In this document: in pieces, positions 25,473 through 29,398 of the stretch | Layout of the letters: each line of letters begins with the position of its first letter | Position numbering within the stretch: the stretch's first letter is position 1 | Notes under the pieces: generated by a model | Databases searched by the model: none | What the model saw: the letters and a program-made list of their open reading frames with translations, nothing else | What the model was told of the DNA's origin: nothing | Program-made: the position numbers and the translations under genes | Source of the DNA: a virus | Direction: 5' to 3' (one strand) | Length of the DNA stretch: 29,766 nucleotides | Virus record (IMG/VR): IMGVR_UViG_3300022074_000257 | Location: 1-29,766 of that record

Positions 25473-25748
25473 TTACCATTTTTTACACGACCAATATCTT
25501 GCCGTAAATTTATCTTTAGCTGTGGAACAACGATGTCTCGCTCTAAAAGACTTTCTACGAGCTGGCTCATTCTTACGTATGGGCATATTAGGATCGCCAT
25601 AATGGATAACCTTAACTTGGTTACCTTTCTTTGCTAAAACTACAAATTTTTTGGTGTCCCTCCAACTGTTGCGTGGCTTGTTGAACCCAGCATACGTATG
25701 ACCCCTGTATTCAATGCGACCACCGCTAAGTCTTTTAACATCTTTCAT
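25473..25748 (-). CDS. basic, Trp/Cys-containing phage protein
   Basis: This 91-residue protein begins MKDVKRLSGGRIEYRGHTYA, continues 'FVVLAKKGNQVKVIHYGDPN', and ends in 'RRKSFRARHRCSTAKDKFTA' plus 'RYWSCKKW'. A 'YGDPNM...SFRARH-x-C ... ARYWSC-x-x-W' ending is recalled from phages of marine bacteria, function unknown. The frame is open to 25856 through a TTG, but that extension covers the palindromes of the control region, so ATG 25748 is chosen. It is the first gene after the internal divergent promoter region. Confidence 0.7.
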   Translation of the reverse strand: MKDVKRLSGGRIEYRGHTYAGFNKPRNSWRDTKKFVVLAKKGNQVKVIHYGDPNMPIRKNEPARRKSFRARHRCSTAKDKFTARYWSCKKW

Positions 25749-25888
25749 GGTGACAAAATAGTTACTATTTATGTTTTGATTCAATACTAAATTAAAGTAT
25801 TGAATTTTACGTAATTCATCTATAAGTTTAACGTAATTACTAATGGTAATGACCAATAGTTATAACTATTCGTCACTATACTATCCAA
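25749..25888. promoter_or_regulatory. internal divergent control region with three inverted repeats
   Basis: This 140-bp non-coding region lies between two divergently read basic-protein genes. It holds AAATAGT-T-ACTATTT (25756-25770), a 9-bp inverted repeat TTCAATACT/AGTATTGAA with a 7-nt loop (25780-25804), and a perfect 16-bp palindrome AATAGTTATAACTATT (25855-25870). ACGTAATT also occurs twice (25809 and 25831). The first and third share the half-site AATAGTTA and look like operators. Promoters toward both genes are expected, but I could not place clear -35/-10 pairs. Confidence 0.55.
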
Positions 25889-26275
25889 ATGGCAGAAAAC
25901 GAACCATCAAAACCAGCCCTATACAGTCGAGTCAAGTCTGAGGCTAAACGCAAGTTTAAGATATTCCCTAGTGCCTACGCATCAGCTTGGATCGTGAAGG
26001 AATACAAAAAACGAGGTGGCACATATACAGGCAGAAAGTCCTCCAAAAGAGGCGTGGCTCGATGGATGCGAGAAAAATGGACTACCCAAGATGGATCACC
26101 TTGTGGGTCAGCCAAGTTCAAGGGCGTAAAAAAATGTCGACCTACTGTTCGTATTAGCAAGGAAACACCTGTTACATGGAAGGAACTCAAAACAAAAGGC
26201 AAGGCTGCTGAGGCTGTACGTGAGAAAAAACGTGTAGGTATGGGTAAACGTGCTAAAGCCATCAAAAGAGACTAG
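25889..26275 (+). CDS. basic phage protein, lone rightward gene in the late block (moron-like)
   Basis: This 128-residue protein is about a quarter Lys plus Arg. 'PSAYASAWIVKEYKKRGGTY' (about 27-46) is followed by 'GVARWMREKWTTQDGSPCGS' and 'CRPTVRISKETPVTWKELKT'. The order 'PSAYAS-x-x-x-V-x-E-Y', 'W...G-x-PCG' and 'CRP...TP-x-TW-x-EL' is recalled from phages of marine bacteria; function unknown, and a DNA-packaging or virion-internal role is a guess. It is read opposite to all its neighbours and its stop shares a CTAG with the terminase nuclease gene. Confidence 0.75.
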   Translation: MAENEPSKPALYSRVKSEAKRKFKIFPSAYASAWIVKEYKKRGGTYTGRKSSKRGVARWMREKWTTQDGSPCGSAKFKGVKKCRPTVRISKETPVTWKELKTKGKAAEAVREKKRVGMGKRAKAIKRD

Positions 26276-27057
26276 CGCAGCACGTACATTGGGCTTGATG
26301 ACCCCTTTTCATTCCTCCAAATAGCATAATCTATTGCATCAGACATGTGTCCTCTATCACCATTGTCTATTTTTAGGCCTTTATCGTTCACAATCGAGTA
26401 CATATAGTCTTTTATGACGTGATCGCACCTTGTATTGATCAAAAGTCTTCTTTCTCCGTTTTTCCCAGCATATATTGCATTATTAACTCTGTCTACACGC
26501 ACTTTTCTTTTAGGATTTTGTATATCTAACTCATTTTTATAAGAAATATCATGATTACTAAATACTTCTCTAACATAATCCCAATCATTTTTTCCTACAC
26601 GACCATAATTACCACTTTTTTGGTTGGATGTGTTGTCCCCAGCCAATAAAACCTTCGAAATACCCCATTTTTTCAGTAATTCTACCGCTTTTAGGGCTTG
26701 CTCAGTGGTCAGAGCCTCTTTGGAGAAGATTTCATCGAAAATAATGTACTGCTTAAGCCCATTACGAGCTTTTTTAACTTGTAGAAGAGCCCAACAATGA
26801 GGAGACCTGTTGAAATCAGCACAAAGCCAGACAGGACTGCTGCTATCGTAATCGAGAGCCGTAAGATTACCATCAGGGTAGTGATTGTATCCATCAAAGT
26901 GTTTGTATGCCTTCTTCGTAGGGTCATCTGTTTCCTCGCTCATTTCATACCCCAATTTATACGACAGAAAGTCCATCGCCTCTTCTTGGAGTAATCTTTG
27001 TTTACTATGGTTTGTTTCCCATAAAGGTATATCCCATACTTTATCAGCCTCTCTCAT
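26272..27057 (-). CDS. terL (C-terminal part): terminase large subunit, C-terminal nuclease half
   Basis: This 261-residue protein has the RNase H-like nuclease plan of TerL. 'LCADFNRSPHCWALL' (D81) is followed by 'IIFDEIFSKE' (E109), 'LLAGDNTSNQKS' (D141) and 'GDRGHMSDAIDYAIW' (D240/D243). The first 70 residues ('KVWDIPLWETNHSKQRLLQE') match the linker that in an intact TerL follows the ATPase. The nuclease cuts concatemers at packaging start and headful. Here it is a separate gene whose ATG overlaps the stop of the resolvase-like gene (ATGA), while the ATPase half lies further upstream. Confidence 0.85.
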   Translation of the reverse strand: MREADKVWDIPLWETNHSKQRLLQEEAMDFLSYKLGYEMSEETDDPTKKAYKHFDGYNHYPDGNLTALDYDSSSPVWLCADFNRSPHCWALLQVKKARNGLKQYIIFDEIFSKEALTTEQALKAVELLKKWGISKVLLAGDNTSNQKSGNYGRVGKNDWDYVREVFSNHDISYKNELDIQNPKRKVRVDRVNNAIYAGKNGERRLLINTRCDHVIKDYMYSIVNDKGLKIDNGDRGHMSDAIDYAIWRNEKGSSSPMYVLR

Positions 27058-27398
27058 AAATGAAATATACTTTTTAATGAACTAGTTGGGTCTACAAAGA
27101 ATATAGCAACTTGATCCTTAAATGCCTCATCTAATATTGAAAAGGCTCCAGAAACATACCCATGAAGAGTGTCTAAATCGTATGTAAGTATTGAACATCC
27201 CTTTCTCATGCATTCATCTATTATATAATCGATCACGCCAGATTCTGTAGTTCTGTCTAGCATTTCCCAGTGTTCATTTACTAACTTAGCACCAATCATG
27301 TCTATAAATCTATGCAGCTCTTTTTTTGTGTTGTCAACATATTCTTGATCTACATCTGTGTTGAATCTTATATATATGATTACTTTAGGTTGTTCCAT
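27054..27398 (-). CDS. degenerate serine-recombinase-like protein inside the terminase locus
   Basis: This 114-residue protein looks like the resolvase catalytic fold. 'VIIYIRFNTD' (6-15) matches the usual 'Y-x-R-V-S-T', 'GAKLVNEHWE' the second strand, and 'GCSILTYDLDTLHG' (67-80) the 'K-L-D-R-L-G-R' strand. The catalytic serine position is Asn13 and the two late arginines appear as Thr77 and Gly80, so recombinase activity is unlikely. No DNA-binding C-terminus follows. The gene begins inside the end of the ATPase gene and ends overlapping the nuclease gene, in a third frame. The homology is a judgement by eye. Confidence 0.5.
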   Translation of the reverse strand: MEQPKVIIYIRFNTDVDQEYVDNTKKELHRFIDMIGAKLVNEHWEMLDRTTESGVIDYIIDECMRKGCSILTYDLDTLHGYVSGAFSILDEAFKDQVAIFFVDPTSSLKSIFHL

Positions 27399-28183
27399 TC
27401 CTCTACCTTGTATCCAGTCTTATCTTCCTTTACTGATATTTGCAGTACGTTAAAGATGCCTGACTTCATAAGTCGACTATTAGCATCATTAGGATGATAG
27501 GGAGTACATACACTTAAAACAATACCTTTATCATGAACACGCTTTATCCATGTGTTAGAAACCTTGTTCCAAACTGTATCTCTACGAGCAGTAGATATAC
27601 GATCTTCATCATTGCACACGTCATCAAGAATTAGGACACCAGCCCTTTGTCCTGTAGTTTGAGTCAGTACAGCATATGCTTCATAAGTGGGGTTGCCTGT
27701 TCTGTTGCGACTCTTAACAATAATACGCTGAGTTGATCCAGTATCAGTCCTATCAAACTCAACAGGATTAAATTTATGCTCTCTGCACCAATATCTATAC
27801 ATATCACTCATAAACAACGCACGTAGTGATAATATCCTCTTAGCAGATATGCCTCCATCAGCAGACACAATCAAGGTCTCAAGTTCATGCTTTCTAGTGG
27901 TCATATAGGCTGATAGACCAATAGCTACTTGTTGCGACTTACCAGTATTGTAGGGCGCACGAATAAGCCCATTCAAACGTGCACTTTTAGACAACGCTTG
28001 CTGTTCCCAGTCATAGATTCCTTGCTGCATAACTAGATGTATATCTGCCTGCGTAAGTTTTCCACCATCTTGATCTGCCAAACAATTCTCAATAAAAGAG
28101 TTGCGCAAATCAATTGAGTCTGCTGGAGGTTCATGGCCCACTACATTAACTAATAAATCAGACCAATTAGTTTTTTGGGGCAT
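27380..28183 (-). CDS. terL (N-terminal part): terminase large subunit, N-terminal ATPase half
   Basis: Counted from the ATG at 28183, this 267-residue protein carries the packaging motor. Walker A is 'APYNTGKS' (76-83), Walker B is 'VLILDD' (183-188), and the coupling motif is 'SVCTPYHPND' (224-233). It stops soon after 'VEEWNNLK', where an intact TerL would run on into the linker and nuclease. The frame is open to a GTG at 28240, and ATG 28213 is also possible; MPQKTNWSDLL at 28183 is the most natural start. The 149-bp gap 28184-28332 upstream shows nothing recognisable apart from AT-rich inverted sequence. Confidence 0.85.
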   Translation of the reverse strand: MPQKTNWSDLLVNVVGHEPPADSIDLRNSFIENCLADQDGGKLTQADIHLVMQQGIYDWEQQALSKSARLNGLIRAPYNTGKSQQVAIGLSAYMTTRKHELETLIVSADGGISAKRILSLRALFMSDMYRYWCREHKFNPVEFDRTDTGSTQRIIVKSRNRTGNPTYEAYAVLTQTTGQRAGVLILDDVCNDEDRISTARRDTVWNKVSNTWIKRVHDKGIVLSVCTPYHPNDANSRLMKSGIFNVLQISVKEDKTGYKVEEWNNLK

Positions 28184-28332
28184 ACGCTTGCTTACACAGG
28201 GTACATTGCACATCACACTGCCTGCCGTGAGAAACAACACCCAAACATTTAAAGGGTTTTGTTTTGTTCCAAAACTTCAAGTGTTTCACAAAGAAGTTCG
28301 TTTTAAATACAGGCAACTTAAATAATTTAAAC

Positions 28333-28833
28333 TTAATAGACATATACCTTTTCTTTTAACGTCATCAAGTCATCCTTAGTGATGTATATAAACACATCTT
28401 TTCTACCCTTTCTACCAATAGGTTTATATAGTATTTGATCATATCCATATTTTTTGGCAGCACCATCAACCCTCATAATAGGCATATTCATTCTTTTGTT
28501 TTCTATCATTTTCTTTACCGCTAAAGAATGTAACTTTTTATTGTCCACCAAAATAAACTCTTCATGAAACTGAAATGCTATTTTGTCTGCCCCTTTACTG
28601 CTGCACCAACCCAGATGGCCCTGTACATTTGTTATTTCGATAAGAATATACCCATCAATGTGGCTTTTTTTTAGCCCCTTAACGTCTATTGTTATATCAT
28701 CTAAATATGCATCAATATGATTATAGTCATCATGCTGAGTACCAGCCCTAGAGCCAGATAACTTGCAAAATAACTTTTCAGATTCTTTGCCCTTTTTTAG
28801 GTTTTGTTTTTGTTGTTCCTTATAATAACTCAT
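28333..28833 (-). CDS. PD-(D/E)XK-like endonuclease
   Basis: This 166-residue protein begins MSYYKEQQKQNLKKGKESEK. 'YNHIDAYLDDITIDVKGLKK' contains D41 and the D50-x-K52 pair. 'ILIEITNVQGHLGWCSS' and 'ADKIAFQFHEEFILVD' follow, as in small nucleases found near phage terminase genes. The product probably cuts DNA, perhaps in packaging or host-DNA breakdown; the exact role is unknown. It overlaps the TerS-like gene by 14 nt. GGAGG is present but about 15 nt from the ATG. Confidence 0.6.
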   Translation of the reverse strand: MSYYKEQQKQNLKKGKESEKLFCKLSGSRAGTQHDDYNHIDAYLDDITIDVKGLKKSHIDGYILIEITNVQGHLGWCSSKGADKIAFQFHEEFILVDNKKLHSLAVKKMIENKRMNMPIMRVDGAAKKYGYDQILYKPIGRKGRKDVFIYITKDDLMTLKEKVYVY

Positions 28834-29398
28834 AATCGGCTTCTATTGCCTCCATTTTTTGAGCGAACTCTTTTAATTGATCCAGATTTAAGAAATCTTG
28901 AAGGACCTGTAATGTCTGTTCTCTCATTTTGTTTTTATATTCAATAATGATAGTTGGCTCATTGCTTAATTCCTTTCTAACATCATGCAAGTCCTTCATC
29001 ATCTTGCTCAAGTCTTTTGGGTGTATCTCTTTTAGGTCCTCGTGTTTTTCTATAGCATCAACTACATTCATCAACAGTAATTCAACCTTAGCAGACAGGT
29101 TTTCTTTTCTTTTCTCTAAATCACCTATTGTGGATAAAAGGTTCTTATATGTCCCAATGTTTCTTAAAACTTCTTTATCTAATAGATCATGTCTTTTGTT
29201 TTTTGTTACTTTATCTAGTTCAATAACCTGTTCTTGTAACTGTTTTGCAGAACCTTTCCAGTTGTATATTGTTTGTCTAGAAAGGCCATATTTTGTTGAC
29301 ACTTTTGACAAGTTTCCATATTTATCCAGATCTCTTAAAACATCTAGCTTTTCTTTATCAGAGTAATCACTTGCTCTCTTTTTTTTCATCCCAACCAT
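28820..29398 (-). CDS. terminase small subunit-like protein
   Basis: From ATG 29398 this is a 192-residue protein with an N-terminal helix-turn-helix ('KLDVLRDLDKYGNLSKVSTK' then 'YGLSRQTIYNWKGSA', about 17-51). Long helices with coiled-coil spacing follow ('TIGDLEKRKENLSAKVELLL'), and the tail is acidic. This is the common TerS plan: DNA recognition at one end, oligomerisation in the middle. Position upstream of TerL fits. The frame is open to 29497, but that part overlaps the preceding gene and is rejected; ATG 29389 is an alternative. Confidence 0.75.
   Translation of the reverse strand: MVGMKKKRASDYSDKEKLDVLRDLDKYGNLSKVSTKYGLSRQTIYNWKGSAKQLQEQVIELDKVTKNKRHDLLDKEVLRNIGTYKNLLSTIGDLEKRKENLSAKVELLLMNVVDAIEKHEDLKEIHPKDLSKMMKDLHDVRKELSNEPTIIIEYKNKMREQTLQVLQDFLNLDQLKEFAQKMEAIEADYELL

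Follow-up and report, generated by a model that had tools for sequence, protein, structure and literature searches.

The large terminase subunit (TerL) is the DNA-packaging motor protein and is, as a rule, a single chain. In the 29.8-kb virus record analysed here (29,766 nucleotides, the window), which comes from a group of uncultured viruses of bacteria, apparently marine ones, the ATPase and the nuclease of TerL are found in two genes on the minus strand, with a small third gene between them (Table 1). Is this split genuine, where do the two halves come from, and what is the gene in the middle? An initial annotation of the window had proposed that a resolvase-like gene split TerL, and that this gene is either a decayed mobile gene or a subunit bridging the halves.

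Table 1 Features of the split terminase locus, its neighbours and selected relatives
Feature	Position	Strand	Remarks
TerS-like gene (HTH protein)	28820..29389	-	head of packaging operon; weak HTH and small-terminase matches; start codon approximate
Conserved neighbour, 166 aa	28333..28833	-	flanked by TerS-like gene and ATPase half; shared with sister lineage; not confidently assigned to a family
TerL ATPase half, 267 aa	27380..28183	-	Walker A RAPYNTGKS, Walker B VLILDD, coupling motif SVCTPYHP
19-nt overlap where ATPase half ends and middle gene begins	27380..27398	-	kept in relatives without homing endonuclease gene
Middle gene, 114 aa	27054..27398	-	predicted degenerate serine-recombinase catalytic domain without DNA-binding domain (Pfam relatives, AF2 model)
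ATGA shared by the middle-gene stop and the nuclease-half start	27054..27057	-	preserved in almost every relative; sister contigs L336 and L411 have it where slot and nuclease gene meet
TerL nuclease half, 261 aa, RNase H-like	26272..27057	-	D81, D141, D240; LWE (LWP-like) segment ahead
DUF5872 gene	25889..26275	+	Pfam E 8.5e-26
Small protein	25473..25829	-	phrog_7595 (1.1e-18)
T5orf172/MUG113 inserts in relatives, examples	L043:7167-7673, L021:903-1331, L013:2594-3034		between ATPase half and middle gene
Divergent middle gene of L009	L009:1170-1523		61% identical to those of L065/L067/L107
259-aa phrog_8198 protein in sister contigs	L409:2445-3224, L459:405-1184		in the slot

A terminase encoded by two genes

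Both halves are called TerL by PHROGs. The ATPase half matches phrog_38 (E 2.2e-21) and phrog_4758 (E 4.7e-15), and its Walker A, Walker B and coupling motifs are kept in 11 homologues. Its ATG start is conserved, whereas an in-frame GTG at 28240 is not. The nuclease half matches phrog_10250 (E 1.7e-6), and its three aspartates are shared without exception by seven phrog_2-type TerLs. In the alignment, the cut falls immediately 3' of the coupling motif and ahead of the LWP-like segment preceding the nuclease domain, so this segment is carried by the nuclease gene. The predicted structure of the nuclease half gave no usable model (pLDDT 39), and neither half matched a solved structure in a sequence search of the PDB.

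The arrangement is not confined to the window. Among 97 IMG/VR stretches encoding homologues of the nuclease half, the order ATPase half, middle gene, nuclease half was observed in 73 of 73 distinct junctions with sufficient upstream sequence, which rules out chance or a sequencing error as the source of the split. No open frame holding both ATPase and nuclease was present in 482 loci. Twelve records of the clade (25-36 kb, possibly incomplete) each contain a single ATPase match and a single nuclease match, and no second TerL was seen in them. The separate genes, the three frames and the 19-nt and ATGA overlaps described in the initial annotation agree with these data, and relatives with the same three-gene order, which it had suggested looking for, are the rule.

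Each gene lies in the -1 frame relative to the preceding one, which would suit a single chain made from the three frames, either by splicing or by programmed -1 frameshifting. This is very improbable. No intein family was found at the locus by the Pfam search. The Rfam search, which reaches described intron types, was likewise negative, and an intron was dropped as an explanation. A frameshift fusion was also discarded: no conserved slippery sequence is seen by eye at the junctions, a few relatives have 14 or 17 nt in place of the 4-nt overlap, and the content of the slot between the halves varies. Moreover, a Shine-Dalgarno-like AAGG stands seven nt ahead of the middle gene. These results concur with the earlier statement that the locus is neither an in-frame intein nor a simple frameshift. 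The nuclease gene has no Shine-Dalgarno site, but the same is true of many genes in the window, so this lends little weight to translational coupling; as proof of coupling, the comparison is uninformative.

Several neighbours accompany the terminase. The TerS-like gene is 49-50% identical in the sister contigs described below, whose flanking genes and gene order agree with the window. The 166-aa neighbour was not detected in part of the clade. The DUF5872 gene is convergent with the nuclease half and overlaps its end by 4 nt. The small protein beyond it also matches a portion of phrog_220 (annotated 'minor head protein and DNA pilot'), and a phrog_7595-matching protein follows the terminase in the sister lineage too. 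The capsid and one other structural-region protein had no match in annotated phages.

A maintained pseudo-enzyme in a variable slot

The middle protein of the window matches Pfam Resolvase (PF00239) at E 0.0026, with 18.3 bits against a curated cut-off of 23.3. Resolvase is also matched by 18/25 of its relatives (best 1.3e-5), one of which reaches the cut-off. The AF2 model has a pLDDT of 74, with one of five models clearly ahead of the others, and its highest VIA Z scores are with IS607 TnpA (6dgc, 12.2), TP901-1 integrase (3bvp, 11.7) and another serine recombinase (11.7), while some other folds, HflX among them, score about 10. TP901-1 integrase is also the top PDB match by sequence, a weak one (E 0.43). 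The degenerate resolvase catalytic fold suggested in the initial annotation is thus borne out by the Pfam relatives and, as a prediction, by the structural model.

The middle protein resembles serine recombinases in its predicted fold and in the Y, R and Q positions of strand 1, but it has no DNA-binding domain and its catalytic residues are degraded. In the window, the equivalents of S10, R68 and R71 are N, T and G, and the active serine and two late arginines are indeed replaced, as had been noted. Across 59 distinct middle proteins, the serine is found in 15, the R68 equivalent is always T or S, the R71 equivalent is never R, and the R8 equivalent is retained in 57. Other positions are strictly kept. 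Sixteen columns are invariant among 25 sequences, and Y9, Q18, W44, E45, C63, Y73, H79 and G84 make up an invariant patch. In the model, the most conserved residues (Y9, R11, Q18, W44, E45, Y73-H79) are located at predicted strand ends, which probably correspond to the ancestral active-site region.

The gene evolves faster than its neighbours. Within the clade, identity exceeds about 82% for the halves and falls to 38% for the middle protein. Rough dN/dS values (Nei-Gojobori counts, pairs with dS < 1) are 0.03-0.05 for the ATPase half, 0.06 for the nuclease half and about 0.2 for the middle gene, which is therefore under purifying selection. If the gene were the relic of a mobile serine recombinase in decay, as the initial annotation had considered, the loss of the catalytic residues and of the DNA-binding domain would be accounted for. 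Nevertheless, every complete copy is open and 111-118 aa long, the gene is universal in the clade, and the invariant columns and the dN/dS value speak against decay, which was rejected on the selection data and is hardly credible. The middle protein is a maintained pseudo-enzyme and not a working recombinase. No relatives of it were found in annotated phages.

The slot also accepts other genes. In 18 closer relatives, an additional T5orf172/MUG113 gene of the GIY-YIG superfamily lies exactly between the ATPase half and the middle gene. Five of the 18 encoded proteins were scanned and are above the Pfam cut-offs; most have a zinc-type cysteine motif. T5orf172 genes are described as homing endonucleases often located close to terminase genes (PMC10448857). 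No homing endonuclease gene lies between the halves in the window. A filled and an empty slot (L043 and L038) can be compared directly: their middle genes are 98% identical in DNA, and the overlap sequence flanks the insert on both sides. On the tree of the halves, the insert requires three gains or losses.

The middle gene itself may be exchanged. In L009, the halves are about 92-100% identical to those of L065, L067 and L107, while the middle gene is just 61% identical, and a tree test rejected the grouping of the halves for the middle gene. Apparently, the allele was swapped between nearly identical halves, although L009 is a single metagenomic contig and could be an assembly artefact. No near-identical donor of this allele is known.

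A sister lineage gives a further view of the slot. A first scan of the genome collection with the nuclease half as sole query returned no loci, and a scan with a mixed alignment returned 80, essentially intact phrog_2-type TerLs. The mixed alignment and further scans yielded the sister contigs L336 (halves about 57% identical), L409, L410, L411/L458, L457, L459 and L460; in the last of these, the ATPase half has a frame break, probably a sequencing error. The sister halves are encoded separately, with the same end and start points as in the window. Their slot contains no match to the middle gene, and the T5orf172 homing endonuclease is not among its ORFs. In most contigs, a 60-76 aa ORF, distantly alike among contigs, directly follows the ATPase half. 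In L336, it is followed by a 52-aa membrane-type ORF, and in some others by a 259-aa protein (phrog_8198) and a 51-59-aa ORF.

As the sister lineage shows the same division in the absence of the resolvase-like gene, the split is independent of that gene. In general, the halves do not require an insert of this kind to stay together, nor is it the visible cause of the split, contrary to what had been proposed. The resolvase-like gene may once have been present in the sister lineage and been lost later.

Origin of the halves and rival explanations

The two halves resemble different TerL families. The ATPase half matches a Zobellviridae TerL profile (E 4.4e-14) and gave no match to the phrog_2-type TerL profile. 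Reciprocally, the nuclease half matches the phrog_2-type profile (hairong, SSU5, LP.2 and others; E 3.2e-24) and gave no match to the Zobellviridae profile. Each of 21 intact known TerLs matches one half only, and none of 135 intact relatives of the nuclease half has such an ATPase. The search for relatives with an intact TerL, suggested in the initial annotation, thus gave none that matches both halves. When control TerLs were cut by coordinates, both halves fell in the same family wherever both matched; the nuclease half of FPSV matched nothing. The coverage is complementary: the ATPase half corresponds to about the first half of the Zobellviridae TerL and the nuclease half to the part of the phrog_2-type TerL from about residue 178 onward, so that together they span one whole TerL without redundancy (267+261 aa vs 510-536 aa in intact proteins). 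A chimera of two terminases would be the simplest reading of this mismatch. As all TerL comparisons are distant (about 20-30% identity) and most of the intact TerLs compared were chosen for matching one half, one old TerL family with unequal divergence could mimic a chimera.

We favour, with a probability of about 0.7, a terminase that is made from two genes, is probably chimeric and has a cargo slot of variable content. The ATPase polypeptide would descend from a phrog_38/Zobellviridae-type TerL, and the nuclease polypeptide, including the segment that precedes its nuclease domain, from a phrog_2/phrog_10250-type TerL. By analogy with the split NrdA of phage Aeh1, the two would join non-covalently into a packaging motor. 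Because the small slot ORFs overlap both neighbours, a ribosome could pass from half to half, and translation may be coupled. In this clade, the slot holds the conserved, catalytically dead serine-recombinase-fold protein, sometimes with a T5orf172/GIY-YIG gene; in the sister clade, small genes unrelated to it take this place.

Plain fission is the main competitor of this reading and, while unlikely, deserves attention. An inserted mobile gene, either a homing endonuclease or a resolvase-like gene, would have cut one TerL whose halves still cooperate, the family mismatch being an artefact of unequal divergence. The position of the T5orf172 gene exactly at the junction of ATPase half and middle gene in 18 relatives is what such an event might leave, the preference of these genes for terminase surroundings (PMC10448857) is in keeping with it, and the summed length of the halves is close to that of an intact TerL. 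On the other hand, the mismatch is reciprocal, no TerL matches both halves, and the endonuclease is missing from most relatives and from the slot ORFs of the sister clade.

A different role for the middle protein was also weighed. It could be a structural or regulatory subunit bridging the halves in this clade, with the different 60-76 aa protein in that place in the sister lineage. Its constant presence under purifying selection, its invariant patch and the small ORF directly 3' of the ATPase half in most sister contigs would agree with this. Its fast divergence between well-conserved halves, the allele exchange in L009 and the lack of such a protein in the sister clade argue against it. The bridging subunit of the initial annotation therefore does not hold for the sister lineage, and for this clade it is conceivable, though rather doubtful. 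Because of the sister lineage without the middle protein and the divergent alleles between nearly identical halves, an accessory role is preferred: most likely, the middle protein is kept for binding via the ancestral active-site pocket and is neither a recombinase nor a general linker. However, every member of its own clade has the gene, a sign that it may be more than optional cargo. A bolder and quite tentative proposal is a hybrid motor, in which the ATPase and nuclease genes of two families would be exchangeable and the pseudo-recombinase would act as a clade-specific third component for regulation or tethering.

Known split genes and the meaning of a proposed two-chain motor

Split phage genes have been described before. 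In Aeromonas phage Aeh1, NrdA is split by mobE, and the unspliced pieces associate and function (Friedrich et al. 2007, as cited in PMC7344957 and PMC3322345). There, as here, an essential phage enzyme is encoded by two genes with another between them and no splicing; in Aeh1, however, the pieces belong to one enzyme and the insert is an HNH homing endonuclease, whereas the terminase has halves resembling two families and a varying slot, and its function in trans is proposed. The terL gene is also split by introns or inteins, for instance in ICP1 (PMC10448857), CB7 (PMC7344957), the Jug phages (PMC12363816) and IBB_35 (PMC3322345). These genes are likewise fragmented, and homing endonuclease genes, T5orf172 among them, are often close by. 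Where introns have been tested, splicing restores a single chain, while here overlapping coding genes fill the slot and no intron was found. In the OM43 phages MEP401/402, the DNA polymerase is split by a small unknown ORF (PMC10580990). These are also marine phages with an essential gene in two pieces around a small non-endonuclease ORF, but the gene concerned is not TerL.

Split terL genes are therefore known, mostly through introns and inteins. A published split or two-part terminase without splicing was not found in the literature searched, which excludes most subscription journals, nor was a report of a fixed unspliced two-gene TerL that combines halves from two families with a pseudo-recombinase as cargo.

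Communication between ATPase and nuclease in viral packaging motors is usually studied by mutating one chain. If this locus encodes a natural two-chain motor from two families, the interface could be dissected by mixing parts. Phage trees are usually built on TerL, and a chimeric one can lead the classification of phages astray. Furthermore, a motor drawn from two families would mean that terminase evolution is modular below the level of the gene.
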